Positions 3,554-57,661 of a stretch of DNA of 64,000 nucleotides are shown one piece after another. The DNA lies in NCBI GenBank assembly GCA_001803635.1, contig MHDU01000074.1:1-64000 (forward strand), written 5' to 3'. How positions within the stretch are numbered: position 1 is the stretch's first letter; each line of letters begins with the position of its first letter. The notes below the pieces were generated by a model, which did no database searches, was not told where the DNA came from, and worked only from the letters and a program-made list of their open reading frames with translations. The stretch comes from Nitrospirae bacterium GWB2_47_37 (GTDB lineage: Bacteria; Nitrospirota; Thermodesulfovibrionia; Thermodesulfovibrionales; Dissulfurispiraceae). A program made the position numbers and the translations under genes.

Positions 3554-3578
3554 AAATGGACACGGCTTTCCAGCGGAG

Positions 3579-3713
3579 TGCTATCGTGGTTCCAGGGAAG
3601 CTGCTATCGTGGTTCCAGGGAAGCTGCTATCGTGGTTCTAGGGAAGCTGCTATCGTGGTTCTAGGGAAGTGCTATCGTGGTTCTAGGGAAGTGCTATCGT
3701 GGTTCTAGGGAAG
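3579..3713 (+). repeat. Six origin iterons
   Basis: Six tandem copies of a 22-bp unit, GCTATCGTGGTTC(C/T)AGGGAAG with a leading T, start at 3579, 3602, 3625, 3648, 3670 and 3692. The first four are spaced 23 bp and the last two 22 bp, about two helical turns. Copies 1-2 carry C and copies 3-6 carry T at the variable position. They lie directly upstream of a plasmid-type initiator gene, as in iteron-controlled plasmid origins. Confidence 0.9.
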
Positions 3714-3826: not shown

Positions 3827-5308
3827 ATGAAAAAAAAGAAAAACGGCAACGGCAAAAACGACAACCTTCCGGTAGCAGCATATACCCCGGTAAGGGTAGA
3901 ACTTAATTTTTTTCGTCATTTTATTTTCACCTTAGATGACAAAAAAGAAAGCGATCCCGGTAATGTTATAACCATAACCAGAGAGCGTGCATATGCCGAC
4001 GGTAGAAAAGTAACAGCTAAATTAACAGTCTATGTGGATTACGAATACGGCCGCTGTGGACCCTTTGATTATAGAGCCTTCCGTGCGGTGGAAAAAATAC
4101 TTACCGACATACACTCTGTAAACGGTGAATTACGCGAAGGGCCAATACGCCTTGGCAGAGAATACTCAATATTTAAATTTATGGGATACAGCCGACACCC
4201 CAGTAAAGACGATTATGCCCGTCTCAAAATCTTTTTCACCCGGATGCAGAGAATGCATTTTCATTCAGATTTCGCTACCTTCAATCCTATCAAACGCCGT
4301 TGGTCTGAAGGCGGCGAAGCATTAGATCCGTTGTATAAGAGAGTAGTTTTTACATACGAGAAAATGCCTGATGATACGATAGCCGATTCGGTATATATCT
4401 GGCTTGGAGATTTCTATCGTGAAAGTCTTAACAGGCAGTATATAGCCATCCTCGACTGGAATTATTACAGCTCGATTAAAAATCTTGCAGCTCGCCGTAT
4501 ATATGAGATAATAAGTATTTTCTCTCATAAGCACACGACGGTTTATCTTTGGTATTCGGATATCTGCGCGAGAATGCAATTAACGAGAGAAAAATACCAA
4601 TCAAAGGCTATTTATCAACTTCAACGAATCTATCGTGAGCTTATAAACAAAGGGTTTTTAAAGGCAGTCATATGGCCGTCACAAGACGGCAAACTGCAGA
4701 CTAAGCAGACAGAATCCGGCAACGACTGGATTATCAAATTTGAGACCAATAAAAACTATCGGGCGCAATTATACGAGCAGTCCGACCTTATCCAACATCA
4801 AATTCAGCCGCAGCAATCTCACCCGGTAGAGGCTCCTGCACAGGCGGGCATATTAGAGAACATGCTTGAATCTCAGGGCGCCCCTAATGAGGAGATAGTT
4901 TCTGATACTGAAAGAATAGCTTTTCCGAACAAAGAGGATCAGCGCTGGTATCGCTTTATGAAATTCTATATCCAAGGCTGTAAAAAGATATCCAAAGAAT
5001 CATACATATTTCCCAAAAAAGACAGTAAAGAATATTGGAAGATCGTTGAACTATTCGGGCTATATCCGGAAACTTACATTAAAAAACTTATGGATAAGTT
5101 TTTTACTACTACAGACTCATATATAAGCAAACAGAGTTATTCCGTGTCTTTTTTCTTAGCGCCTACGACAATCAATAAATTGATTTCTGAGTTGGCTATT
5201 GATGATGAAAAAAGAAAGGCCGAAGAAGACTATCAGCGTCGCGTGGCAGCGGCGGAAAAACAGATTTTAAAAACACTTGGTTTGCCGGTCGAGCAGCTTC
5301 AAAAATAA
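3827..5308 (+). CDS. Replication initiator protein (RepA/RPA-like, winged helix)
   Basis: 493 residues. The N-terminal two thirds resemble plasmid 'replication initiator protein A' proteins: a first winged-helix part with LGREYSIFKFMGY (about 107-119), then LDWNYYSSIKNLAARRIYEIIS (about 213-234) leading into a second DNA-binding part with KAIYQLQRIYRELINKGFL. Such proteins bind iterons and open the origin. The C-terminus (from about 350) is less conserved and ends in a coiled, charged helix. The context is decisive: six iterons and an inverted repeat lie just upstream. No Shine-Dalgarno sequence is obvious before ATG 3827. The family call rests on pattern recognition plus the iterons. Confidence 0.75.
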   Translation: MKKKKNGNGKNDNLPVAAYTPVRVELNFFRHFIFTLDDKKESDPGNVITITRERAYADGRKVTAKLTVYVDYEYGRCGPFDYRAFRAVEKILTDIHSVNGELREGPIRLGREYSIFKFMGYSRHPSKDDYARLKIFFTRMQRMHFHSDFATFNPIKRRWSEGGEALDPLYKRVVFTYEKMPDDTIADSVYIWLGDFYRESLNRQYIAILDWNYYSSIKNLAARRIYEIISIFSHKHTTVYLWYSDICARMQLTREKYQSKAIYQLQRIYRELINKGFLKAVIWPSQDGKLQTKQTESGNDWIIKFETNKNYRAQLYEQSDLIQHQIQPQQSHPVEAPAQAGILENMLESQGAPNEEIVSDTERIAFPNKEDQRWYRFMKFYIQGCKKISKESYIFPKKDSKEYWKIVELFGLYPETYIKKLMDKFFTTTDSYISKQSYSVSFFLAPTTINKLISELAIDDEKRKAEEDYQRRVAAAEKQILKTLGLPVEQLQK

Positions 5309-5332: not shown

Positions 5333-6829
5333 ATGATGCAAACGACATTGCCGAGAGATTTAGGCAGCAGGTTTATTCCGTTCCCCATGATTCCGGGCTC
5401 ACCGGCGCTGATGCCGGAACCCGGCATAGAGGCTGTAAAAGTTTCAGGGGTAGCCTTATTACCCCTGTCTCAAGACGATTTAATCGTTTCTGTGGCTTCT
5501 GGCGAAGCCACAGAGGTAAAAAAATCAGAGGACATAGCCTTCGATAACGAAACTCTCTGGACGCAGGCATACGAACTCGTAGAACGTCTTAAGCAAAAGA
5601 TCACCGGCTTTGCCGGACACTTCTTGCCTTACTCCTCATATCCCCTCGATGATTTTATTCAGCAGGCCTACGAGTCCGGCTTTAAAGCCCTTGAGAAATG
5701 TCTTGAAAAAGGGGAGACTAAAAAATACAAAGGATACTTCTGGAGGCAGTATCGACAGGACTGCTCTAAAATGGCCCATATTCCATCGAGGAAGAAATTC
5801 TACGAAGAATCTATAAAAAACAGCATCAAAGACCATTCCCTTGCTGAAGAAATTCTTAAAGAACTCAGCAAATCACCGCTGTCTTTTGAAGCCTACCGGG
5901 AATACAGCGAAGACGATGCTCCTGCTACTGCAGTCGCATCGTCCATACCGGACCCGTTTCAAACAGCGATCTGGAACGAAGAGGCGCTTGACAACGAACT
6001 CAAAGAGTTAATACAGCAGGAGACAGTCAAAAAAGCCATCTGTCTCATGACCAAAAGAGAAAGACAGGTATGGGAGTACCTGCTTGGATATCATGACGGC
6101 AGGATAGAGAATATAAAAGATTTGGAACAAATCCTCGGACTTAAGAAGCCACGAATTATAAAGCTTAGGGATAATGCTCTTGCATATGTAAAAGAAGTTT
6201 TCGCTGTTTATCAGAAACTATATACACGCGAGGAAGTAAGTAAACAAAGCGGATACAGCATCGGAACCATAAAACTCATGAAGCGATATGGTTTTCTCAA
6301 AGCTAAAGAAGACTATATTCAGCGCGTAAAAAACGGCAGCGCCCTTTTTACAGAAAAGGCGATAAATAAACTCAACGTCCGGCGCGAGGGGAAAATATGG
6401 GAAGAAACTTTGACCATAGAAGAAGCAAAGAAAAAATTCAAAAGACAAAAACTCTACACGCTGCAGGAACTCAGCGAAAAGACCGGATATAGTCTCAGCA
6501 CTCTTCGATCCATGAGATGTTATGGATTCTTTAAAATCGGCATAGAGGGCGTAAAAGTTTCAGGGGTAGCCTTATTACCCCTGTCTCAAGACGATTTAAT
6601 CGCTTCCTGCGCCTCTGGCGAAGCCACAGGGGTAAAAAAATACGCAGGCAGGTCTTTCTATCTGTTTACCGAAAAGGCCGTCAAAAAACTCCTTCACCGC
6701 CGTAAGCGGACGCCGGCAATACCGGCAAGAGAGACTAAACTGCCCGCAGCAATATGTGAGCGTACCCTGAATTTTTATTCCAGATCACATATTGCGACAC
6801 GTATTGCGACGCGGGCTGCCGCAGGTTAA
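5333..6829 (+). CDS. Sigma-70-like regulator with tandem MerR-type helix-turn-helix and two inserted repeat peptides
   Basis: 498 residues behind a strong GAGGAGGG ribosome binding site. Residues ~75-160 (LDDFIQQAYESGFKAL, then YFWRQYRQDC) resemble sigma region 2. LMTKRERQVWEYLLGY (~240-255) followed by LEQILGLKKPRIIKLRDNAL resembles region 4. Two copies of a MerR-like helix-turn-helix follow: LYTREEVSKQSGYSIGTIK (~299) and LYTLQELSEKTGYSLSTLR (~381). A 33-residue peptide, VKVSGVALLPLSQDDL plus its flanks, is present near residue 35 and again near residue 407. The second copy interrupts the wing of the second helix-turn-helix. A role as alternative sigma factor or phage-type activator is inferred. 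The C-terminal ~50 residues are basic. Confidence 0.55.
   Translation: MMQTTLPRDLGSRFIPFPMIPGSPALMPEPGIEAVKVSGVALLPLSQDDLIVSVASGEATEVKKSEDIAFDNETLWTQAYELVERLKQKITGFAGHFLPYSSYPLDDFIQQAYESGFKALEKCLEKGETKKYKGYFWRQYRQDCSKMAHIPSRKKFYEESIKNSIKDHSLAEEILKELSKSPLSFEAYREYSEDDAPATAVASSIPDPFQTAIWNEEALDNELKELIQQETVKKAICLMTKRERQVWEYLLGYHDGRIENIKDLEQILGLKKPRIIKLRDNALAYVKEVFAVYQKLYTREEVSKQSGYSIGTIKLMKRYGFLKAKEDYIQRVKNGSALFTEKAINKLNVRREGKIWEETLTIEEAKKKFKRQKLYTLQELSEKTGYSLSTLRSMRCYGFFKIGIEGVKVSGVALLPLSQDDLIASCASGEATGVKKYAGRSFYLFTEKAVKKLLHRRKRTPAIPARETKLPAAICERTLNFYSRSHIATRIATRAAAG
5423..5525 (+). repeat. Palindromic coding repeat, copy 1
   Basis: This 103-bp unit is about 90% identical to 6539-6641 and lies in the same reading frame of the same gene. 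It holds three short palindromes: CAGGGGTA/TACCCCTG, CGATT/AATCG and GTGGCTT/AAGCCAC. This layout resembles palindromic elements that insert in frame into genes, such as the Rickettsia palindromic elements. It encodes an extra ~33 residues. Confidence 0.75.
6539..6641 (+). repeat. Palindromic coding repeat, copy 2
   Basis: Same 103-bp length and frame as copy 1, with about ten substitutions, most of them clustered between the second and third palindromes. Comparison with the first helix-turn-helix of the protein shows the unit sits inside the wing of the second one, replacing a short loop. It is therefore an insertion rather than an ancestral domain. Confidence 0.75.
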
Positions 6830-9198: not shown

Positions 9199-9330
9199 TA
9201 TTAGCGTTTTAATTAGCACTTCCTATACGCTTATCGCCTACAAAGTGCAAATTAAAACGCCCTTTCTTGTCTTTGTATAATGAGGAAGTGCTAATTAATT
9301 AGCACTTCCTCATTATAGTCTTTACTGCCT

Positions 9331-9350
9331 GCTCCCTTCGGGAGCCTGTC
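9331..9350. repeat. Second copy of the GCTCCCTTCGGGAG palindrome
   Basis: It matches 7625-7644 at 19 of 20 positions and lies between the 42-bp palindrome and the 12-bp inverted repeat of the parC-like region. No function is evident. Confidence 0.4.
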
Positions 9351-9499
9351 GCGCTCTTATTACTCATTGCGGACTATAAATAAACATAGTATATGTTGTT
9401 ACTCAGAATCGAGTAACAACATCCAATAAATTTGCACTTCCTCTCCTTTAGCGGCATCGCAAGTGCAAATTTATATCCCCTTTTCATTTTCTTCAATCA

Positions 9500-9521
9500 G
9501 GGGTTACCCGCCGTAGCATCT
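9500..9521 (+). promoter_or_regulatory. GGGGTTACCC-N6-GCAT(TA) element, copy a (upstream of parM)
   Basis: GGGGTTACCC (9500-9509), six bases, then GCATCT (9516-9521), the least perfect second half. It points toward parM, whose TTG start is 92 bp further on. It is one of seven copies, all in the direction of the gene that follows. Confidence 0.7.
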
Positions 9522-9613
9522 CTATTTTAGAAGTGCAAATTAAAACGCACTTTCCTGCTTGTAAGCAGATTATAAAGTCAAAACAAAAAGCCCTTAAGGG
9601 CGAGGAGGAAACA

Positions 9614-10863: not shown

Positions 10864-10885
10864 GGGGTTACCCATTGAAGCATTG
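10864..10885 (+). promoter_or_regulatory. GGGGTTACCC-N6-GCATT element, copy b (head of the tra operon)
   Basis: GGGGTTACCC (10864-10873), six bases, GCATTG (10880-10885). It begins right after the parR stop and ends 10 bp before the ATG of the OmpA-like gene, at the head of the 21-kb transfer operon. That spacing would leave almost no 5' leader if the element were a promoter. Confidence 0.75.
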
Positions 10886-10895
10886 TAAAGATACT

Positions 10896-11630
10896 ATGAT
10901 GATGAAACAGTCTACATTTCTTAAGATTATATTTTCGGCATCTTACCTCCTCCTTATGGTCATAGCGCATAAGCCTCTCCCCGCTTATGCGCTATCTTTT
11001 TTAGTGCCGCATGAATTGGAACAGAAAGGTAATGCATATAGACATTACCCTTCAAATCAACGGTATGTCTATACCGATAAGCCGGTATTTTTTTCAAAAC
11101 GGCAGCCGGCGCAAGACGGCAATGAAGAGGACGAATACTTTAGGAAAAAGGAGCAAAAAGCAAAAAAAGCACAGTCTTCAGTTGTATCATTGCCTTTAGA
11201 GCAAATAATTTCACGGTCTCCGGCAACTGGAATGAGCGCTAAGGCCTCTGTTTTAAAGCCGGAGATCACAAAAGAAAACAGGAACGTATCAATCATCGTT
11301 TTTGGCTTTGACAGCGCGGATATTAAAAAAACTGAACTCAAAAAATTAGAGGCCATCCTTACTGATTTGAAACAGGCTGAAGTAATCGAAATAAAAGGCT
11401 ATACGGACAAAATCGGCACCGAGGAATATAACGATAAATTAGCTCTACGAAGAGTTGATGCGGTGAAAAACTATCTCGCTTCACGCGGCATTAACGATTC
11501 AAAAATTAAAATCGAAGCAAAAGGGAAATGCTGTTACATATCAGATGAAAACAGCAAAAACAGGAGAGTTGAAATATGGATAGAAGTCGAAACAGGAAAA
11601 ATAATTTTGCGGTCTGGCTCACGGCTATAG
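10896..11630 (+). CDS. OmpA-domain envelope protein
   Basis: About 244 residues from ATG 10896 (two further in-frame ATGs follow at once). The N-terminus has a signal peptide with a hydrophobic core (SASYLLLMVIA) and likely cleavage after AYA. The C-terminal ~100 residues are an OmpA-like peptidoglycan-binding domain: VFGFDSADIK, then GYTDKIGTEEYNDKLALRRV, then KGKCCYISDENSKNRRVEIW. It is the first gene of the transfer operon and probably anchors or scaffolds the machine to peptidoglycan. The frame is open back to GTG 10860, but that part lies over the conserved 22-bp element. Confidence 0.82.
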   Translation: MMMKQSTFLKIIFSASYLLLMVIAHKPLPAYALSFLVPHELEQKGNAYRHYPSNQRYVYTDKPVFFSKRQPAQDGNEEDEYFRKKEQKAKKAQSSVVSLPLEQIISRSPATGMSAKASVLKPEITKENRNVSIIVFGFDSADIKKTELKKLEAILTDLKQAEVIEIKGYTDKIGTEEYNDKLALRRVDAVKNYLASRGINDSKIKIEAKGKCCYISDENSKNRRVEIWIEVETGKIILRSGSRL

Positions 11631-26913: not shown

Positions 26914-26935
26914 GGGGTTACCCTTCCGGGCATTA
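26914..26935 (+). promoter_or_regulatory. GGGGTTACCC-N6-GCATTA element, copy c (upstream of traF)
   Basis: GGGGTTACCC (26914-26923) and GCATTA (26930-26935). It points toward traF, whose ATG is 30 bp further on. It is placed where the operon restarts after the invertible segment. Confidence 0.75.
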
Positions 26936-35713: not shown

Positions 35714-35735
35714 GGGGTTACCCCTCTGGGCATTA
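35714..35735 (+). promoter_or_regulatory. GGGGTTACCC-N6-GCATTA element, copy d
   Basis: GGGGTTACCC (35714-35723) and GCATTA (35730-35735), preceded by one more G. A 14-codon frame (35743-35787) starts 7 bp later, and the next clear gene starts at 35819. The stretch 35600-35713 before it shows no coding signal and is AT-rich. Confidence 0.75.
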
Positions 35736-39232: not shown

Positions 39233-39676
39233 TCACGATTCCACCTCCCTTCGCTGATCTTCTCGCACCACGTCCATGTTCACAGTAAGGAAGGATACGG
39301 TATGTCCGGTATCAGGATTCACAAAGGTTTCCCTCTTCGAGAATCCGACACCCTCGAAGATCCAGCAGCTCCAATCATTAGAGTCATTAGAGCCTGCGAT
39401 TGTGCAACACACAACCGGGGCCTTAATGCGCTTCAGTACCTCCTTGACCAGAAAATTACCGATTCCCTGATTCCTGTACTCTTCCTTGACATAGAGATGC
39501 TTTATTTCGGTCATGTACCACGTCTGCCTTTTCAGTCCGACGCAGCCCTTAATCTTGCCGTCTTCTACTGCGATATAATAGCGATAGGCAGGTTTGATCT
39601 GTGGGATATGACCCGAAAGCATCTCTCTTACTCTCATCAATCCTTCTTCCGATACAATTTTTTTAAATTCACGCAT
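39233..39676 (-). CDS. GNAT-family acetyltransferase
   Basis: 147 residues. The GNAT core is visible: YYIAVEDGKIKGCVGLK, then EIKHLYVKEEYRNQGIGNFLV with the acetyl-CoA loop R-N-Q-G-I-G (about 68-73), and WIFEGVGFSKRETF near the end. Substrate unknown. It lies downstream of the amidotransferase and amidoligase genes in the same direction. Acetyltransferases are known partners in such peptide- or metabolite-modifying operons. Confidence 0.88.
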   Translation of the reverse strand: MREFKKIVSEEGLMRVREMLSGHIPQIKPAYRYYIAVEDGKIKGCVGLKRQTWYMTEIKHLYVKEEYRNQGIGNFLVKEVLKRIKAPVVCCTIAGSNDSNDWSCWIFEGVGFSKRETFVNPDTGHTVSFLTVNMDVVREDQRREVES

Positions 39677-39699: not shown

Positions 39700-40806
39700 T
39701 TAAAAGCGCCCGTGCCTTTTGATATAGTTGTTTCTTCCTGCATACAATTTTCCTTTCTTCTCAGCTTTTACTCTTTTCCGCCTTTTCTGCTCTTTTTCAA
39801 GCTTTTTGAGATAAAATTGCCACTCAACGACTGTTTGCGCATCAGCCTCTTTGAGCGCCTGAATTTCTGTCTCTATTTTGCTTATTTCAAGAGCAAGATC
39901 GGCATTATCCATTTCCCTGATCCGGATATCCTCATCATCCTCATCAGGCGAACTACTAAACGGTTCGCCAAAAAGTGATCCTGTATAGCTATCGTGCGCT
40001 ATCATGGGATAATGGTCGGACAGCGATGATGACATTCGAGGTCTCTCTCTTACAAAATGTCTCAGCGTCTTTAATGCTTCTACTTCATAAATGCCGTCAG
40101 CCTTTACATAGTAAAGACTGTATGGCTTTGCATCAAAATAGGTGCATTTTGTAATGTCCTTTTCGATACCTGCCGTCTTCCACGCCTTTACGAACATCTC
40201 TTTAGTGCTGGCAAACCAGCGTCCCAGTCCGACAGTGCGCGCGTCAAAGATACAGAGCGGACGATCAGGGCTTCTCCAAAGCCACAGACAGTCATCGGTA
40301 AGGTACGCAAACGCAAAGTCAGCTTTTTGAGAAATGAACGAACTCAATTCCTCAATAGCGACATGCGTCTGTTTACCCTGTCTTTGTAGTTTTGCGAGAG
40401 CCTTAAAGAAAGTGGCTGAATCAACGGCCGCTTCCTTGATTCCATAGCGTTCCGCAATCTCCTCCGGCACCCCGATGATACCGTTGTGTATTCCCCAGAA
40501 CCACTTTTCGTTGACCTGATATCCGAAGGGGTGAGAGTTTTCATCGCACTGAGGACCTTTAGTCTTAAAGCGTACATGCCCCAGCGCGTAGGAATATTTT
40601 CTCGTCCAAAGAAAATCACTATACCCGCGAACAAGAAAATCTCTACCCCTTATCCCTTTTTTATTCAGGCTAACCTTTCCATTTTTATTTTTTACGAGTA
40701 ACCCTGTGCCATGCGGATTGCCGTTCTCTTCGGTGAGAATGAGCGCCCGCAGGAGGGCTGTCGTCTGCGGATTTGAATCCCCGCAGAAACCGAATATTCT
40801 GCACAT
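39700..40806 (-). CDS. Class II glutamine amidotransferase
   Basis: 368 residues. The N-terminal Cys nucleophile is Cys2 (MCRIFGFCG). The Ntn-hydrolase pattern includes LGHVRFKTKGP (about 78-88), NSHPFGY and WGIHNGIIGV, as in GATase II of glutamine-dependent synthases. Such domains release ammonia from glutamine and pass it to a partner. After ~270 the C-terminus is a charged coiled coil, perhaps for docking. It directly follows an amidoligase gene, which probably supplies the partner reaction. Confidence 0.85.
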   Translation of the reverse strand: MCRIFGFCGDSNPQTTALLRALILTEENGNPHGTGLLVKNKNGKVSLNKKGIRGRDFLVRGYSDFLWTRKYSYALGHVRFKTKGPQCDENSHPFGYQVNEKWFWGIHNGIIGVPEEIAERYGIKEAAVDSATFFKALAKLQRQGKQTHVAIEELSSFISQKADFAFAYLTDDCLWLWRSPDRPLCIFDARTVGLGRWFASTKEMFVKAWKTAGIEKDITKCTYFDAKPYSLYYVKADGIYEVEALKTLRHFVRERPRMSSSLSDHYPMIAHDSYTGSLFGEPFSSSPDEDDEDIRIREMDNADLALEISKIETEIQALKEADAQTVVEWQFYLKKLEKEQKRRKRVKAEKKGKLYAGRNNYIKRHGRF

Positions 40807-40824: not shown

Positions 40825-42564
40825 TCAGTTTGCATTCCTGTGGGCCATCAGCCAACGTGCCACCCCAATGCTGTGATAGCAATGATTGTGGCTTCTAAAT
40901 TCCCGACATGAGCAGGTCAGTGTGTCGTTTTCCGGATTGAGAATCACAGCATAAACGCCGTTGCCGCTTTGTGCCCTCAGTTCCCATGTATTATCATCGG
41001 TCCGTGCCTGCCTCAATACGTCAAAGCCCGGAAGGCTTCTGCTTATAGAGGCCGAAGCAAGGTTTCTCACTGAAGTCGGAGGTAAATTATTGTCGGCAGC
41101 CGGCGGAATATGTCTGGGCCTCCGCCCGGACTCATATCTGTTTCTTAATTCCCGTTCGCGCTGCTGCTGAACTCTTCTGTCCAATTCATCCTGTATTTCG
41201 TCAATATTTACAGGATTAACATTCGGCATATTGGCGGGATTCCGTTCAGAGTCTTCCTTCCAGTACTGAAATCTGCCGTAGAGGTAATCCTTCGCATCCT
41301 TGATGACGGATGTTGATGAACTGTCCATTCCTACGGCATTCATTACACCGTCAAATGTAACATCCTGTATGTCCGTGTACTTCATGCCCTTCTTTACAGA
41401 ATCCGTCAGTTTAAGGCAAAAAATTATCCACGGGATTATTTTCTTAGCATCCAGAGTCCCGTTGTGTAGACGGAACTCAATTGTTTTATGCCTTCCGAAC
41501 GCCGACAGATTGAGGCTGTAGTATCTGTCCAAACGGGCATGGCCGTGCTGGATAAGGTTGATGAGATAGTTCGTGTCAACCGGTTTGCAGAAATTATTAT
41601 TTCTGCGTGATGGACTGATCAGATACCATAATACCGGTATCTCAATCTTTGCCCATATTTTTGCCAGTTCCATCATTCCATTCTCATCCCAGTTCCATGC
41701 GTCAATATGGACGTGTGTTCCGCAGGATTTGTTGACTGAGGAGCCGAGTTCATTCCAGACGCTGAGCGCTGTCTTTAACTCCTCGAAACCTTCTTTTCCG
41801 TAAAGCTTGCGTGATACGAGTTCAATAGGAGTATAGTTTCTGTCAACATGCACGGAACCGTCGGAAACGATTTTCCAATGAGCCCTTACTGCGTGATTGT
41901 ACGGCTCGTTTCTGCATATCACGTTGGCTTCCGCAAGTTTATTGGACAGTCCGGCTGAACCGTGATCGCTATGGATCCCTCCTTCAAACTCAACGCCGAA
42001 CTGATAGATTGGAAGGAGATTGACGGTCCGGTGTTCCCTTAAAAGTGATTCATACTCTCTGTATTCAACTCCCTGCTTTATGAGCAGATCGTTGAAAATA
42101 AAGTATGCCTGGGCATCGGTCAGATGCTCATTAACCGATACACCCAGTCTTTTAAGGGCGGCTATCTGCCATTCCGAGGGCTTTCTCGCGCCGTGAAGCC
42201 TCTCGGTTATCTCATTACCTATAAGATTGAGATACATCCGTATGTGCTTGCAGGTGGCATAACCTACGCCATTTTCTACGCCTCTCTGAAAAAGGAAGGA
42301 AAGACAGTCGCAAGACAGAGAACCGTCACTGTTACGGCTGATAAGGTATTTGCCGTTAAGGTTTTCGGATTCCATTATAGTCAGCCGCTGTCTTGTCGGT
42401 CTGTTGCTGTCCTGTCTGCGTCTCGGAGTATCAAGATTGATCACGCCGCAGGCGGGACATTCAATGGCGTTAGGGGTTAAATTTTCCCTACAGGCATTAC
42501 ACTGCCGCGTCGTAACATTTACTTGTGTTGTTGGTATTTGTTCGTTAACAGCCAAAACTGTCAT
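40825..42564 (-). CDS. Amidoligase with zinc ribbon and two SWIM-type zinc fingers
   Basis: 579 residues from ATG 42564, chosen for the AGAGGAGA ribosome binding site; the frame is open to 42642 but crosses a leader hairpin. Order: zinc ribbon CNACREN...CPACG (~23-40), SWIM finger CDC...CKH (~80-110), then the amidoligase core (glutamine-synthetase-like fold) with FGVEFEGG, CGTHVHIDAWNW and SLNLSAFGRHKTIEFRLHNG. A second SWIM finger, CSC...CYH, is at the C-terminus. Amidoligases form amide or isopeptide bonds with ATP and often pair with class II amidotransferases, as here. Zinc fingers suggest a nucleic acid or protein target. Confidence 0.82.
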   Translation of the reverse strand: MTVLAVNEQIPTTQVNVTTRQCNACRENLTPNAIECPACGVINLDTPRRRQDSNRPTRQRLTIMESENLNGKYLISRNSDGSLSCDCLSFLFQRGVENGVGYATCKHIRMYLNLIGNEITERLHGARKPSEWQIAALKRLGVSVNEHLTDAQAYFIFNDLLIKQGVEYREYESLLREHRTVNLLPIYQFGVEFEGGIHSDHGSAGLSNKLAEANVICRNEPYNHAVRAHWKIVSDGSVHVDRNYTPIELVSRKLYGKEGFEELKTALSVWNELGSSVNKSCGTHVHIDAWNWDENGMMELAKIWAKIEIPVLWYLISPSRRNNNFCKPVDTNYLINLIQHGHARLDRYYSLNLSAFGRHKTIEFRLHNGTLDAKKIIPWIIFCLKLTDSVKKGMKYTDIQDVTFDGVMNAVGMDSSSTSVIKDAKDYLYGRFQYWKEDSERNPANMPNVNPVNIDEIQDELDRRVQQQRERELRNRYESGRRPRHIPPAADNNLPPTSVRNLASASISRSLPGFDVLRQARTDDNTWELRAQSGNGVYAVILNPENDTLTCSCREFRSHNHCYHSIGVARWLMAHRNAN

Positions 42565-42578
42565 AATGTCTCCTCTCA

Positions 42579-42627
42579 GGCGCACATACTCCAAAGAGGA
42601 GTTTCCTCCTTGCAGGAGATGTGCGCC
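42579..42627 (-). promoter_or_regulatory. GGCGCACAT leader hairpin before the amidoligase gene
   Basis: GGCGCACAT (42579-42587) pairs with ATGTGCGCC (42619-42627), with smaller stems between (GAGGAG/CTCCTC type). The ribosome binding site follows directly on the minus strand. A near-copy precedes the gene at 44005-44502. Confidence 0.55.
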
Positions 42628-42685
42628 CTTTGAATATTTCAAAAGGTTTTATCTCCGCAAGGCGGAGGATTGGCTTGCTTAATGC

Positions 42686-46778: not shown

Positions 46779-47023
46779 TTTATTAATCCTGTGAATTTAA
46801 GTATCGGTGACCCATATGCTATTGCAAATATAAACAGCAGACAGATTCCGGCAATTCTCGCCTGTTTTTTAGATGTCAGCCATATCGCAAGAGCTAACAG
46901 AAATAATGAGATAATCCTCGCCCAAAACCCTTTAAATATTGTGGCAAAGGCGACCTGCCACCACGAGACATATTGATCGTGCGGTATATGCTCTAAAGGG
47001 TTTATGAGATCAAAGGGGTTCAT
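46775..47023 (-). CDS. Small membrane protein
   Basis: 82 residues with two or three hydrophobic segments (WWQVAFATIFKGFWARII, LFLLALAIWLTS, GICLLFIFAIAYG). Its ATG lies 7 bp after copy e of the GGGGTTACCC element, so a promoter there would give a leaderless mRNA. It overlaps the next membrane protein gene. Unassigned. Confidence 0.65.
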   Translation of the reverse strand: MNPFDLINPLEHIPHDQYVSWWQVAFATIFKGFWARIISLFLLALAIWLTSKKQARIAGICLLFIFAIAYGSPILKFTGLIK

Positions 47024-47030
47024 GCTAATA

Positions 47031-47052
47031 TAATGCCTTGTAGGGTAACCCC
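47031..47052 (-). promoter_or_regulatory. GGGGTTACCC-N6-GCATTA element, copy e
   Basis: Minus-strand GGGGTTACCC (47043-47052) and GCATTA (47031-47036). It starts immediately at the stop of the HD-domain gene and ends 7 bp before the next ATG, in the direction of transcription. Confidence 0.75.
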
Positions 47053-48495
47053 CTATTCATATTTCGGGTTTACTTCAACGATATCTTTCAACTTTCCGAC
47101 TTTACGGGCCTCGAGTTCCGAGACCGTCCCGGCAAAAACCTCGGCTACAAAGGGCGTATAGTAGCCTTTATCGAATTCTTTTCCATCCCTCATGCGGACG
47201 ACAAATGGAGCTCCAAAGAATTCATCCTTTATCAATCCTCTGGCGATTGCATCTTTGTCGGTCCGAAGTCTGCTTACGATGCTGAAAAGTATATTTCTCC
47301 TGAGACCTTCGTCCGCATCGCCCAATAAGACTTCTTTATGATCTTTCTTCCTGGCTATTTTTTTTGCGACTTCCCACAGTATTTTTACCTGAAAATATAC
47401 ATAGCCGCTCGACATACTGAAAGCATCCCAACGGCCGCCATTAAGCCGGTTGATATACGGATTCAGTTCACCGATGAACTCATCGAGATCGAGCCACGGC
47501 AAATCCTGCTCGGTAATATTTACTTTTTCTTTTTCGGGTTTTACCTGGCTGCCGAATATATCTGTGTCGCCGGGTTTCTTTTTAGTGTTTTCGTCCTTAG
47601 TGGAAACATAATGGGGGATAATATAGGTTTCTTTGACGTTGACATCGGGAGTTGGGGTTTCGAGAGATACGGGTTCGTTAAGAGGTTCTTTATTAGATTC
47701 GGCATCGGCATTTCGAATAATATTTTTTGAGTTTTCTGCAAGTTCTTTACGCCTTGATGCCTGATCCGCCTCTTTAAGTTTTACACATAAAAACTCGTCG
47801 GAGTTGCGGTGATGGTCTTTAATCGCCTTGAATATCTCGTCCTTGTCTTTGTCGGGAAGCGCGGTGAATGCCGCTATCTGGTTCAGGATGCCGATACTTA
47901 TGAGAGGATGATCTCCGGTAGAATAGGTTTTACTGTAAGACGGTATTTTGCCGAGATCGTGGGCGAGGGCAGTTATAACAGCCTTTGGAATAACAGGTCC
48001 GGAGCTGCCGAGGGATTCTACCATCTTCTCTGCGACATTCATGGTATGCTGCAGCAGACTTGTCCGGGCAAGAATGTCATATACGTCTTTCGGTAATTTG
48101 CCTTCATCTTCGTTAAATGTATTGACGACCGATGGGCAGTCCCCTCCCTGATCGAGGATATTCAACAACTCTCTGACAATCTTCCCATTGACGCCGAGGA
48201 AATAATGTTTATCAGCTATGTATATGAGGTAAAAATCTCTGATTTCCTGATGCTGATAGCTGATTTGAATTTCTTCGGTCTTTTTCTCTTCCAAATTGGC
48301 AGTTTCTTTTTTTTCGGTCTGTTCATTTCCGCTATCCTCACCTGTCGGCTCCAGCCAAAGCTTTGAGAGTTCTTTGAGAGTAATCTTTTCTCTTTTCAAT
48401 AATGTAATTGCTGTTTTGTGGGATTTATTACTGAACAGACCGTATAAAGCATACAGTATACAGGAGATTCCGGCTATCAGGAGAAAAAGCCTCAT
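47053..48495 (-). CDS. traI: HD-domain protein, MOBH (TraI_2-type) relaxase candidate
   Basis: 480 residues. An N-terminal membrane helix (1-20) and a Glu-rich linker are followed by the HD-type core: LLQHTMNVAEKMV, ALAHDLGKIP, GDHPLISIGIL and IKDHHR, then LKEADQASRRKE. This order of His/Asp motifs is that of the N-terminal domain of MOBH relaxases such as TraI of SXT and R27. A membrane anchor on a relaxase is unusual, so a regulatory HD phosphohydrolase is the alternative. No other relaxase is seen in the window, and traD lies directly upstream with a 4-bp overlap. Confidence 0.65.
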   Translation of the reverse strand: MRLFLLIAGISCILYALYGLFSNKSHKTAITLLKREKITLKELSKLWLEPTGEDSGNEQTEKKETANLEEKKTEEIQISYQHQEIRDFYLIYIADKHYFLGVNGKIVRELLNILDQGGDCPSVVNTFNEDEGKLPKDVYDILARTSLLQHTMNVAEKMVESLGSSGPVIPKAVITALAHDLGKIPSYSKTYSTGDHPLISIGILNQIAAFTALPDKDKDEIFKAIKDHHRNSDEFLCVKLKEADQASRRKELAENSKNIIRNADAESNKEPLNEPVSLETPTPDVNVKETYIIPHYVSTKDENTKKKPGDTDIFGSQVKPEKEKVNITEQDLPWLDLDEFIGELNPYINRLNGGRWDAFSMSSGYVYFQVKILWEVAKKIARKKDHKEVLLGDADEGLRRNILFSIVSRLRTDKDAIARGLIKDEFFGAPFVVRMRDGKEFDKGYYTPFVAEVFAGTVSELEARKVGKLKDIVEVNPKYE

Positions 48496-49898
48496 AATAC
48501 ATTGATTTTCGGATACTGTATTTCTAAATTTGCAGGAGAAACCATAGAAGTTTTCCCGCGATAATTGCCTGAGTAGGTTTTGAGATAAAATTGTTGCGGC
48601 TGTAGATCCGTAAACACATCGGGCTTTACCCTCGGTTTTTCCGTCTCGCGCACTGTCGGGCTGCCGCCGATGCTAAGAATCGGGGAGAAAACATCTACCG
48701 TTCCAAAATGATCGGAAGCGTATTCTGCCGTTTCCGTATTAGGGCAGCGCTGGAATCCTCTTGTATTTGTATTGCCGAATATAACATTGCCGTAATCCTT
48801 CCCCAGCGCTCCCCATACCTGTGAGGGATCCTGACAGAATAGACTTATCCACCAGTTGGCGCCGCCGACTTTTGCCAATGAATCGTCTATGCCTCTGTAA
48901 AGCACGGACTGGCACTCATCGATGATTGTCGATAATGGCGGATTGATGACCTCCCCCGATAGAAATTTTCTCCCGGCAAACTTGGAAAAGCTTGAAAATA
49001 TAATTTTTGCCAGATTAAAGGAAGCCTGACCACCAGTTAAAGACCCAAGTTGAAGAACTAAAATTACTCGTTCTCCCTGCTCAAGGCGTTTTATACACGG
49101 ATTTTCTATCGCCTTTCCTACAATCCTGCCGATGCTGCCGACGCACATCTCCGTCAAGGCAACTCTAAGCGATGTCGTTACTTTAGCGAAGTAATCCTGC
49201 GGAGAGGACGCTATTCTCTGAAGGTCCCCTGATAATTGCCCTGCTTCCAGAAGGTTATAAATATCATCTATTCGCTCCGCCATTTCATAAGCTCTATTTC
49301 TATCTATTGAAGCCACATTCTGCTGGAGCTGTTTAAGCGATTCCTGCGGTATGATGTTTTTCACATCATTAAGGTTTATCACTGCCTTCTTGCCTTCATA
49401 TTCAGCAAGAGTTACTAAAGCAATACACGCCACGATGCTGATCTCGTATGCGATTTTCTGAAAGAAGGGATCTTTCCCTGCTTCAACGCCTGAAGTAACT
49501 ATACCGGCAAGCTCCTCTGGGATAAAAAAGTAGCGCAAAACATTGAACGGCGCGCTTAGCTGCGGATAGAAAGGATTGATGAAAATAAGTTCTTTCTCCC
49601 TGCCTGTCTTTTTTGCTGTTTCAACTATTTTATTTAACGCATCACTGTCGCATTTCGGATCGATAAATGCTACAGAATATCCTTTTTTAATGTCCTGTTC
49701 GCAGATATTTTCAATAACTCTTGTTTTGCCTTGGCGAGTAGTCGCTACCCATAGGAGATGGCCGGAACGATCTTTATCCGGAATAGATATCGGAATTTTC
49801 TTGCGGCGATCATCGAGCCTATATCCGCTCCCCAAAACAGTCACAGGTTCCTTTGTTTTTGCGTCTATGTAATAACCTTTGTCTGTAAGCTTTATCAA
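48492..49898 (-). CDS. traD: TraD-like type IV coupling ATPase
   Basis: 468 residues, shorter than most TraD (600-700), and without the N-terminal membrane helices. The nucleotide-binding motif reads ATTRQGKT (52-59) where G-T-T-G-x-G-K-T is usual, so two glycines are replaced. Walker B is STIIDEC near 328, and the TraD/VirD4 landmarks QDPSQVWGALG and GNVIFGNTNTRGF are present. It should feed relaxase-DNA to the channel. It overlaps the HD-domain gene. A separate membrane protein downstream may replace the missing anchor. Confidence 0.85.
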   Translation of the reverse strand: MIKLTDKGYYIDAKTKEPVTVLGSGYRLDDRRKKIPISIPDKDRSGHLLWVATTRQGKTRVIENICEQDIKKGYSVAFIDPKCDSDALNKIVETAKKTGREKELIFINPFYPQLSAPFNVLRYFFIPEELAGIVTSGVEAGKDPFFQKIAYEISIVACIALVTLAEYEGKKAVINLNDVKNIIPQESLKQLQQNVASIDRNRAYEMAERIDDIYNLLEAGQLSGDLQRIASSPQDYFAKVTTSLRVALTEMCVGSIGRIVGKAIENPCIKRLEQGERVILVLQLGSLTGGQASFNLAKIIFSSFSKFAGRKFLSGEVINPPLSTIIDECQSVLYRGIDDSLAKVGGANWWISLFCQDPSQVWGALGKDYGNVIFGNTNTRGFQRCPNTETAEYASDHFGTVDVFSPILSIGGSPTVRETEKPRVKPDVFTDLQPQQFYLKTYSGNYRGKTSMVSPANLEIQYPKINVL

Positions 49899-49902
49899 CC
49901 CT

Positions 49903-50658
49903 CTACCACCTTACTATAACCCTTTCTTTGAGTTCATCAGATACTTTTTTAATGCAGTCCCGCGGGATCTTTGCAGATGCTTTTATCTCACTGAAGGCGC
50001 CGGCAATCCTGCCGGTGCAACGGATATTAATGTCCATGTTCTGAGTTATTAGTTCCCGCCTAATAAGGCATTCCGGCAGCCCTGTGGAATTTCTACTAAG
50101 CCTTATTACAAGCCTCGGCGTTCCTTTCAGAAGCGCGGGCTTGACGCTCAGGGCATAGAAAGGCATCGTCTGTCCCACCATATACCACCCTCTCTCTTTT
50201 GGCGTCTGATGCGCCTGTTCACATACTGCCACCGTATACTGATCGGATGCCGGATAATCTATGCCCTTGAGCGCTACATATAATTCATCGGATTTCTTTT
50301 TAATGATCTCTCCAGTTACTGCTGTATGAATTATGGTCTTATAAAGGCTGTATTCGTTAAAGAGTTTTCGTATTTCGAGCGCATTTGCAAGTTTATAAAG
50401 TATTTCTCTTATAAGCGGTCTCTTTATATTTTCAGGGCTGATTGTCGATATAAAGGGTTTCATATCTTCCCTACGCATTTTAAATCCGCATATTGATAAG
50501 TCCTCCGGACCACCGTTTAGTCGGGTTTCAACCTCAAACCCAAAACGTTTTGACAATACGGAGGAGATAACATGCTCTATCTCCTCAACCACAATTGTAT
50601 CGTTAAGGTTATATTTATCGGAGAGGTCTTTGATCCAATCATTTGTTTTGAGCGGCAT
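49903..50658 (-). CDS. NusA-like protein (N-terminal and S1 regions)
   Basis: 251 residues. By eye it lines up with NusA over most of its length. DLSDKYNLNDTIVVEEIEHV and SKRFGFEVETRLNGG match the RNA-polymerase-binding N-terminal domain. The IHTAVTGEIIKKKSDELYVAL region matches the start of the S1 domain (E-x-x-I-x-T-G-x-V). RLVIRLSRNSTGLPECLIRREL with SEIKASAKIPRD matches the S1-KH junction (V-x-R-S-x-P-x-x-L; E-I-K-A-x-A-R-D-P-G). The KH domains are absent. It may modify termination or antitermination on the element's long operons. Overlaps its neighbour by 20 bp. Confidence 0.55.
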   Translation of the reverse strand: MPLKTNDWIKDLSDKYNLNDTIVVEEIEHVISSVLSKRFGFEVETRLNGGPEDLSICGFKMRREDMKPFISTISPENIKRPLIREILYKLANALEIRKLFNEYSLYKTIIHTAVTGEIIKKKSDELYVALKGIDYPASDQYTVAVCEQAHQTPKERGWYMVGQTMPFYALSVKPALLKGTPRLVIRLSRNSTGLPECLIRRELITQNMDINIRCTGRIAGAFSEIKASAKIPRDCIKKVSDELKERVIVRW

Positions 50659-51079
50659 AAGTTCGTTTTAATTCATTAAATACCTTCCATGCATACTTAA
50701 TCCGCTTACCCTTCGATACAGCGTTATAGCATCCTACAGCTTCCCACACATAGCCGTGTTTTTCGATACATTTTTTGAGAATCTCCGCGCCGACTTTTGT
50801 ACATTTACATGGATCTGCTATAGACATCCATTTTTCATGGCCGAGAGAGCGATAATTGCCTGAATTGATCTGCATGTGACAAAAATCAAATGTGCCGTTG
50901 GAATTGTAGTTGAGTGCTTCATTGTTATGGTTGCTTTCAACTTTTGAAATTACCTGTAAGAGCATGGGGTCGATATCATACTTGGCGCCTCCCTCTGAAA
51001 AACAAAATGGGTCTTCGTTTGCAAAGAGAGGCGATGAAAAGAGTGTAACCCCAATAATTATTGATAGAACCTTATTCAT
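50639..51079 (-). CDS. Lytic transglycosylase (VirB1/P19-like)
   Basis: 146 residues with a signal peptide (1-20, SSPLFANE). The SLT core shows DPMLLQVISKVESNHNNEAL with catalytic Glu near 48, then FDFCHMQINSGNYR and a late YVWEAVGCYNAVSKG (NAV/Y motif). Such enzymes cut peptidoglycan to let the transfer channel through. Two pairs of extra Cys suggest disulfides. It belongs to the minus-strand transfer operon. Confidence 0.9.
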   Translation of the reverse strand: MNKVLSIIIGVTLFSSPLFANEDPFCFSEGGAKYDIDPMLLQVISKVESNHNNEALNYNSNGTFDFCHMQINSGNYRSLGHEKWMSIADPCKCTKVGAEILKKCIEKHGYVWEAVGCYNAVSKGKRIKYAWKVFNELKRTYAAQNK

Positions 51080-51291
51080 TTATTTAATCCTTTCTGCGCT
51101 GCCGGCATATCAGCCCGGCCGTCCTGTGCAATTTTCATATAATCTTCGAAGGCCGCGCCTTTTAGTCGGCCGGTATTGCCTAAGTGTGTAAGAAATTTGT
51201 CGTTAAAGCCTTTAAGTATCTTTATGTCCGGCCTTCTGCCGTCTGAGGATAGGACTGTTTTGTCTTTATTAAGATAATCAAATCGTATCAT
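51076..51291 (-). CDS. Hypothetical protein (71 aa)
   Basis: Overlaps the transglycosylase gene by 4 bp and the PilZ gene by 14 bp, so it is clearly part of the operon. Basic and polar, without membrane segments; DGRRPDIKILKGFNDKF in the middle. No family recognised. Confidence 0.6.
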   Translation of the reverse strand: MIRFDYLNKDKTVLSSDGRRPDIKILKGFNDKFLTHLGNTGRLKGAAFEDYMKIAQDGRADMPAAQKGLNK

Positions 51292-51889
51292 GGTTTTGCC
51301 GAGCCGTTTTTAAAAAAAAGTCGGACATAAACGAATAAAAATCGTTTTCCTTGGCTTTTTCGATATTTACGAATTTAACGCCTATTCCCTGAGTAATCGA
51401 ATACTTGACCATAGCGGCTATTGAAATTCCGCCCTCTATCGGCAACTTCATGGTAATATTGGTGCTTAACGGATAGGGAACGCCGGTTTTTATAAAACAT
51501 CCATTCAGGCTAAGATTTGAGACAGGATATTCCCAGCCGTTAATTTCCGCAGTTATCCCGTCGGTCTTAAAACGAGGGCATAATCTGCGATCCTCCTCAA
51601 GCAGGTATACATGATCGTTTTGGGCGTCATTGCCGTTTCCCTGTATTTTTTTTACCCAATCTGATGTTATTTGTAATTCATTGACTGCCGAGAGAAACAG
51701 CTGTTCGTGCTCTTTATATTTATTGTCCTGCAATAACAGGCTCAGGATACTGAGTACATAACACATTCTATTAACCACAATATTCGTTATGCATTTCACA
51801 TGTTTTGGTATATGAGAAATGCATTCGTCCGGAGACGAACAAATAGAAGCGCAAAAGTCATATGGAAAACCTTGAATATTAAGCGGCAT
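51278..51889 (-). CDS. PilZ-domain protein
   Basis: 203 residues. The C-terminal ~95 residues hold the PilZ motifs: R-x3-R in RRLCPRF (about 106-112) and N-x-S-x-x-G in NLSLNGCF (about 128-135), then beta strands ITMKLPIEGG and QGIGVKFVNI. These residues bind cyclic di-GMP. The N-terminal ~100 residues are helical with several Cys. First gene of the minus-strand DNA-processing operon, so transfer could respond to the second messenger. A structured leader and copy f of the 22-bp element lie upstream. Confidence 0.78.
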   Translation of the reverse strand: MPLNIQGFPYDFCASICSSPDECISHIPKHVKCITNIVVNRMCYVLSILSLLLQDNKYKEHEQLFLSAVNELQITSDWVKKIQGNGNDAQNDHVYLLEEDRRLCPRFKTDGITAEINGWEYPVSNLSLNGCFIKTGVPYPLSTNITMKLPIEGGISIAAMVKYSITQGIGVKFVNIEKAKENDFYSFMSDFFLKTARQNHDTI

Positions 51890-51986
51890 AAGTTCTCCTT
51901 GGGCTTAGACTGCTGTGCCGCATGCCGCAGGAGGCTCTGTATGGATAGGTGAATACAGAGCCTATCGCAATCCTCAAATACGGCAT
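51879..51986 (-). CDS. Possible leader peptide (35 aa) before the PilZ gene
   Basis: ATG 51984-51986 has a strong AAAGGAGGG ribosome binding site, and the frame ends 11 bp inside the PilZ gene. It lies within a folded leader: CTGTGCCGCA/TGCGGCACAG (51913-51922, 52010-52019) and GGCTCTGTAT/ATACAGAGCC (51933-51942, 51953-51962). Translation could open these stems, as in attenuation. Coding by chance is possible. Confidence 0.35.
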   Translation of the reverse strand: MPYLRIAIGSVFTYPYRASCGMRHSSLSPRRTYAA

Positions 51987-52019
51987 CTTAGCCCTCCTTT
52001 CATCACACTTGCGGCACAG
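51913..52019 (-). promoter_or_regulatory. Structured leader of the DNA-processing operon
   Basis: Two perfect 10-bp stems are nested here: an outer one (51913-51922 with 52010-52019) and an inner one (51933-51942 with 51953-51962). The ribosome binding site of a 35-codon frame lies between them. No T-tract follows either stem on the minus strand. Together with the 22-bp element just upstream this is probably the regulated 5' leader of the PilZ-SLT-NusA-TraD operon. Confidence 0.55.
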
Positions 52020-52024
52020 TATGA

Positions 52025-52046
52025 TAATGCCTTAAGGGGTAACCCC
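52025..52046 (-). promoter_or_regulatory. GGGGTTACCC-N6-GCATTA element, copy f (symmetric)
   Basis: Minus-strand GGGGTTACCC (52037-52046) and GCATTA (52025-52030). The copy is part of a near-perfect palindrome (16-bp arms ATAATGCCTTAAGGGG/CCCCTTAAGGCATTAT around TAA), so a second, nearly perfect copy reads on the plus strand. It points toward the PilZ operon. Confidence 0.7.
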
Positions 52047-57290: not shown

Positions 57291-57312
57291 TAATGCTTTT
57301 ATGGGTAACCCC
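57291..57312 (-). promoter_or_regulatory. GGGGTTACCC-N6-GCATTA element, copy g (upstream of ssb)
   Basis: Minus-strand GGGGTTACCC (57303-57312) and GCATTA (57291-57296), directed at ssb, 125 bp before its ATG. It is the outermost copy on the right, between ssb and the integrase sites of the right end. Nothing else of note is seen in 57166-57420. Confidence 0.75.
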
Positions 57313-57547: not shown

Positions 57548-57593
57548 AGCTTCCCAAGCTGAAGGTCGCGGGTTCGAATCCCGTCGCCCGCTC
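57548..57593 (+). repeat. attR-side direct repeat (tRNA-Gly(CCC) 3' half with CCA)
   Basis: 46 bp identical to 228-273. Here the sequence runs on into CA, giving the encoded CCA end, and then into the host dinB region, so this copy keeps the original downstream border of the tRNA gene. The anticodon stem is not complete (AAAGC instead of TCAGC), which marks element DNA to its left. Confidence 0.9.
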
Positions 57594-57661
57594 CATGAAA
57601 GCCGTTTTCATCGATAGAATCATCCTGAATAAGAACCTCGATTTGTATGTATACTACAATC

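Follow-up and report, generated by a model that had tools for sequence, protein, structure and literature searches.

NusA usually exists as one housekeeping protein travelling with RNA polymerase, and among elongation factors it is NusG that is known to have specialised paralogues. An open reading frame at positions 49903-50658 (minus strand, ATG start, 251 aa) of the 64,000-nucleotide stretch analysed here, which we call the window, raises the question of whether a mobile element can carry a NusA of its own and what such a protein would do amid conjugation genes. We find that the gene specifies a minimal paralogue of NusA and belongs to an integrative and conjugative element (ICE) of a Nitrospirota bacterium, and we weigh what its domains, its neighbors, and its distribution suggest about its role.

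The element and the operon

The ICE is about 57.3 kb long and is bounded by 53-nt repeats, the left of which (228-280) resembles a tRNA 3' end and lies beside a tyrosine integrase gene (301-1434), with the right repeat at 57548-57600. Its F-type transfer genes encode TraE, a TraK-like protein, TrbI/TraB, TraC, TraU, TrbC, TraN, TraF, TraH, and TraG. A tandem array with a 22-23 nt unit (TGCTATCGTGGTTCCAGGGAAG) at 3556-3713 (+) precedes a putative replication gene at 3827 and is iteron-like, and three AAGTGCAAATT-type repeats at 9243-9553 (+), ahead of an actin-like (ParM/Alp) gene, have the look of a centromere belonging to an ICE-borne partition system of the plasmid type. The gene for an Amidoligase_2/SWIM protein (40825-42642, minus strand) adjoins those for a glutamine-amidotransferase-like protein (39700-40806, minus strand) and a GNAT acetyltransferase (39233-39676); together they possibly form a cargo pathway.

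The NusA-like gene sits in a run of minus-strand genes with gaps or overlaps of a few bases. The run begins with a PilZ-domain protein (51278-51889; PF07238, E 1.9e-6) and continues through a 71-aa ORF (51076-51291), a lytic transglycosylase of the SLT type (50639-51079; PF01464, E 1.9e-13), the NusA-like protein, a TraD-type coupling protein (48492-49898; PF12696, E 3.3e-9), and an HD-domain protein directly 3' of it (47053-48495; PF01966, E 7.6e-7). The transglycosylase gene and the start of the NusA-like gene share 20 nt, and traD opens with a TTG codon 4 nt past the NusA-like stop. A placement between TraD and the transglycosylase in a DNA-processing operon was what the sequence-only reading had described, and the gene coordinates and the two Pfam matches agree with it. 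TraD also scores against the SXT_TraD model TIGR03743 (E 2e-34, under the cut-off). The HD protein gives weak scores with Cas3-HD and Csm1 models and may represent a relaxase-associated enzyme of HD type that has gone unrecognised. An intact nusA of the host lies on a different contig from the ICE.

Homology to NusA

The 251-aa product is a true, highly diverged homologue of NusA, with an identity of about 16-23%. In Pfam and PDB searches, only family profiles reveal the relationship: single-sequence searches with the protein retrieved nothing from Pfam, PHROGs, or PADLOC, and phmmer against the PDB gave only chance aldo-keto reductase matches. The NCBIfam NusA model TIGR01953 matches the protein at E 1.1e-6 and 27.9 bits, which does not reach the equivalog-domain cut-off of 253.4 bits, and it matches 13 of 14 relatives (best E 1.1e-10). 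Aligned with NusA by hhalign, a 20-sequence family profile gave a probability of 98.5, E 1.7e-15, and a score of 110 over 226 columns; none of 100 column-shuffled profiles scored above 22, and the reversed profile scored 16. With eight family sequences against NusA of the same phylum, the result was E 2.3e-9 and a score of 70, compared to a maximum of 20 in 40 shuffles. A 14-sequence family profile run by hmmsearch over all PDB chains had NusA as its best match (8.5e-11), and all 14 matches under E 1e-3 were NusA. Reciprocally, the family profile retrieves the chromosomal NusA of another genome of the phylum (G055, E 1.7e-4).

Structure tells the same story as the profiles. An AlphaFold model of the protein (pLDDT 84, pTM 0.73), compared to the PDB with Foldseek, has NusA at ranks 1-19, with a best E of 8e-15 and a TM-score of at most 0.67 on the query. 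The likeness to NusA had been proposed by eye, with profile and AlphaFold comparisons as the check, and it is borne out by NCBIfam, profile-profile alignment, the PDB profile search, and fold comparison. A generic S1 protein is ruled out, because the match spans the N-terminal domain (NTD), linker, and KH1 and because the leading fold matches are all NusA.

Domains retained and lost

Housekeeping NusA (TIGR01953; Escherichia coli, Thermotoga maritima, Mycobacterium tuberculosis) and the ICE protein share common descent and the same order of NTD, linker helix, S1, and start of KH1. In the model, helices at residues 6-16 and 20-39 and subsequent strands precede a long linker helix (80-109), the NTD body covering residues ~6-62; the S1 barrel follows at 113-188, and the chain ends in a KH1-derived beta-beta-alpha-beta module at about 212-250. 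The protein had been described as lacking the KH domains. That holds for KH2 and for the GXXG segment of KH1, but the KH1-derived module remains. The GXXG segment (E. coli 249-256, GACVGMRG), whose G253 is invariant among 33 NusAs compared, has no counterpart in the ICE protein, and the acidic repeats are absent as well. The loss goes beyond KH, as comparison with the published anatomy of the NusA NTD (PMC4642336) shows that the NTD head is also missing, a feature shared with NusA of M. tuberculosis and P. limnophilus (PMC4642336). Unlike housekeeping NusA, the ICE protein is only 251 aa long, is borne on an element beside traD, and is additional to the host nusA.

What is retained bears on function. 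In NusA, the NTD and S1 domain make the contacts with the flap-tip helix and with nascent RNA (PMC8940904; PMC4642336), and the NTD alone is reported to be sufficient for pause enhancement (PMC4642336). The NTD body is present in every long family member, and where E. coli NusA has L27 and L31, residues that reportedly lie at the RNA polymerase interface (PMC4642336), the family is mostly hydrophobic. All 11 sequences of the initial alignment keep the S1 residues E171, F/Y173, and R199, as do most sequences of the larger set. P214 is not kept, nor is R104, which is invariant in the 33 NusAs, the local alignment at R104 being uncertain. Mean pairwise identity within the family is 0.32 for the KH1-derived module, 0.24 for S1, 0.20 for the NTD, and 0.18 for the linker helix, and the drop from KH1 to NTD is about the same proportion as in NusA.

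The family is under purifying selection, with dN/dS of 0.14-0.23 between close members. This bears directly on whether the gene is a functionless NusA fragment in decay, as its very low identity to NusA and the existence of truncated copies in two genomes (a fragment in G017, and in G226 a C-terminal piece joined to topA) might suggest. The dN/dS values, and a size and synteny conserved in three phyla, leave that explanation barely credible for this gene; for the family as a whole, decay is refuted by selection and synteny. In the G226 case, at loci L020/L071 (G226:C108), the family's C-terminal 33 residues are fused in frame to the end of topoisomerase I directly before traD, and the junction is either a deletion fusion or an assembly artefact.

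A family that accompanies traD

The NusA-like proteins make up a real, unnamed family. Its members are carried by F-type conjugative elements and come from Nitrospirota, Desulfobacterota, and the phylum that includes Seleniivibrio, three phyla so far. A profile search of 396 genomes of the host phylum matched 10, among which one ORF is the chromosomal NusA of G055, rejected as a member, and some others are fragments, so that about 9 of the 396 carry a NusA-like gene. A match in G058 was likewise rejected, the 573-aa ORF, beside a sigma-factor-like ORF, reading by eye as a primase. Members, some partial, occur in 10 of 51 genomes of the phylum to which a Seleniivibrio record belongs, and further members lie on plasmids of Desulfosarcina sp. 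BuS5 and on two plasmids typed MPF_F, pSD of Geobacter anodireducens and pPRO1 of Pelobacter propionicus. One NusA-like/TraD locus (L060) is in a contig titled Nitrososphaeria archaeon, which is probably mis-binned. No relatives were found in viral contigs or BFVD, or in phages with the Desulfosarcina relative as the query.

The most constant genomic partner of the NusA-like gene is traD, and the gene usually lies directly upstream of it. At 16 loci a co-oriented TraD-like P-loop follows 106-214 nt past the NusA-like stop. On pSD and pPRO1 the order is transglycosylase, NusA-like, TraD/TraG, with an HD protein next on pPRO1. The transglycosylase neighbor is common to the Nitrospirota, Geobacter, and Pelobacter elements; in other elements ssb takes its place upstream. 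With a NusA-like profile search that covered all traD loci compared, only traD genes at least 41% identical to that of the window have a NusA-like gene, and relatives at 33-37% do not.

This linkage invites an explanation away from transcription, in which the NusA fold has been re-used in the transfer machine as a nucleic-acid-binding protein or adaptor for TraD or the relaxosome, handling single-stranded DNA or RNA. We regard it as possible, though on balance doubtful. The co-oriented traD directly downstream at the 16 loci and on the two annotated plasmids speaks for it, as do the restriction to one traD clade, the replacement of the transglycosylase gene by ssb, and the fact that no part of the protein is better conserved than the KH1 module without GXXG. 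A conserved operon position, however, does not show physical partnership, and the association has exceptions: traD is 6.7 kb away on the DeMMO5_1 ICE and 9.4 kb away on the Desulfosarcina plasmid (at a third locus, L080, the distance is 755 nt). The NTD, the part that docks on RNA polymerase, would moreover be useless in such a role, yet all long members retain it.

Repeated sites and a sigma-like factor

The sequence-only reading had set the NusA-like protein beside seven co-oriented leader elements. Seven exact GGGGTTACCC sites are indeed present, but four are on the plus strand and three on the minus strand, tracking gene orientation; each ICE transcription unit has a single site, which lies on its coding strand. 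On the plus strand the GGGGTTACCC-N6-GCAT sites lie before the actin-like gene (9500-9519), an OmpA-like gene and the tra operon (10864-10883), traF/traH/traG (26914-26933), and the genes of the 36268 region (35714-35733). Those on the minus strand lie between the HD gene and the gene at 47023 (47033-47052, the 47043 site), before the operon running from PilZ to HD that contains the NusA-like gene (52027-52046, the 52037 site, inside a 29-nt inverted repeat), and before ssb, with topA following on the same strand (57293-57312, the 57303 site). The full bipartite motif, GGGGTTACC-N6-GCATT, has fixed spacing and spans about 26 nt. The rest of the genome holds one further site, mismatched; a second mismatched match is the reverse reading of the palindromic 52037 site and was not counted. 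Downstream of the 52037 site is a long structured leader (51890-52046, minus strand; predicted -56 kcal/mol over 160 nt) that has partial similarity in the sister ICE and no Rfam match, and an Rfam scan of the whole window gave no matches.

The element also encodes a sigma-70-like factor with two MerR-like HTH segments (5333-6829, plus strand; TIGR02937, E 2.7e-5), for which PDB searches are led by region 4 of SigA/RpoD at E 0.05 and weaker. The gene contains an internal 104-nt duplication (5422-5525 and 6538-6641, 91%). Within the phylum sample it has a single close relative (66%), carried by the DeMMO5_1 genome, which belongs to the host's family. Distant relatives (30-41%) in G338, G395, and G074 match sigma-70 models at E 1e-17 to 1e-18 (best 1.4e-18), over the curated cut-off, and G338 and G395 carry both such a relative and a NusA-like gene. 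Unmistakable sigma-70 relatives in other genomes with related elements include those at L118 and L119. At L081, a suspected sigma-like ORF 5' of the NusA-like gene gave no family match and is not counted here.

More than two motif sites per genome occur in 2 of the 396 genomes, this host and DeMMO5_1, and these are the two with the close sigma-like gene, while the NusA-like gene ranges much more widely. For this reason the GGGGTTACCC sites are better read as promoters (or operators) of the ICE sigma factor than as antitermination leaders, and the sigma-70-like protein is their likely reader. By inspection the motif does not fit sigma-54 or standard sigma-70 spacing; its span of roughly 26 nt is, we presume, closer to FliA-type promoters.

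These distributions also weigh on the model that had been proposed from the sequence, a dedicated processive antitermination system loaded at the seven GGGGTTACCC leader elements with the NusA-like protein as partner. In its favor are the exactness of the sites, their occurrence once per transcription unit, and their near confinement to the ICE, and dedicated antitermination of conjugation genes does exist, in conAn of pLS20 (PMC8955417) and canT of Tn916 (PMC11658703). There is also a 13-bp perfect hairpin followed by CTTTTTT at 10962-10995 (+), near the OmpA-like coding start and 98 nt past the 10864 site. This hairpin, however, is the sole strong terminator-like one after a GGGGTTACCC site and is missing from the sister ICE. 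Terminator-like sites in the transfer operons, counted on both strands, number 25 against 18.2+-4.8 expected and 28 against 17.4+-4.2, and sense-strand terminators show no clear enrichment. An operon-start site shared with the factor across elements, as a loading site should be, was not found: the motif cluster is absent from G083, G338, G395, and G095, whose elements carry full-length NusA-like genes, and its range is far narrower than that of the gene. The bipartite motif itself reads as promoter-like and has the same range as the close sigma-70-like gene. The proposed pairing is unsupported, and the antitermination system is very improbable.

Possible functions of the NusA-like protein

Our working interpretation, held tentatively and at a little less than an even chance, is that the NusA-like protein, bound to the host polymerase at its RNA exit channel, alters pausing or termination on the element. 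The retained NTD, which would dock on the beta-flap tip, and the S1 domain, which would meet the emerging RNA, lead us to see in the protein an elongation factor specific to the element. Expressed along with traD, it would shift pausing and termination during transcription of the transfer region; it would lack the sequence-specific RNA recognition that the two KH domains provide, and may displace host NusA. Homology, the NTD with its mostly hydrophobic L27/L31 positions, the S1 residues, selection, and a sigma-70-like gene on the ICE are all consistent with this reading, for which NusG-type ActX on conjugative plasmids offers a precedent (PMC7819879). Set against it are the NTD and linker helix as the least conserved parts, the apparent loss of R104, no clear excess of sense-strand terminators in the transfer operons, and a strongest genomic link that is to traD and not to an operon start.

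A rival reading is that the protein competes with host NusA: lacking the KH and acidic-repeat parts but occupying the flap-tip site, it would lower NusA-dependent intrinsic termination or pausing and so spare element transcripts. The truncation, which keeps the docking part and drops RNA-reading parts, would suit such a competitor, as would the intact host nusA elsewhere in the genome, and for LoaP, antagonism of NusA suffices to bring about antitermination (PMC12691694). Yet S1 and the KH1-derived module, for which a mere decoy would have no use, show conservation no lower than that of the NTD; we consider a competitor unlikely.

In the elongation-factor reading, the sigma-70-like factor would most likely start transcription at the seven GGGGTTACCC-N6-GCATT sites with the NusA-like protein working beside it. 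That the two make up a private transcription apparatus, the sigma-type factor firing promoters found only on the element and the minimal NusA modifying host polymerase, is an idea that we think will more probably prove wrong than right.

Comparison with known systems places the protein apart. ActX, RfaH, and LoaP are, like it, specialised paralogues of a general elongation factor, and ActX, found in conjugation (pilus) operons, is a candidate dedicated antiterminator of conjugation genes (PMC7819879). They have the NusG fold, with NGN and KOW domains, whereas the ICE encodes no NusG domain: the genome's two NGN-domain genes (PF02357) are both on other contigs, in agreement with the earlier remark that the window has no NusG paralogue. 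pLS20 conAn (ConAn1/conAn2) and Tn916 canT likewise provide dedicated elongation control of conjugation genes, but are Gram-positive systems with an RNA component. Phage lambda N and Q with host NusA also represent element-controlled antitermination via NusA at the RNA exit channel; lambda brings an adaptor and uses the host's NusA, whereas the ICE brings a NusA-derived protein. A literature search found no description of a NusA paralogue, or of a protein resembling NusA, from plasmids or conjugative elements, an absence that is not proof of novelty.

The family gives an identity to proteins annotated as 'hypothetical' on pSD (ANA41745.1) and pPRO1 (WP_011733904.1). A NusA-derived family tied to traD would represent either a new form of transcription control by mobile elements or a transcription-factor fold recruited into DNA transfer.
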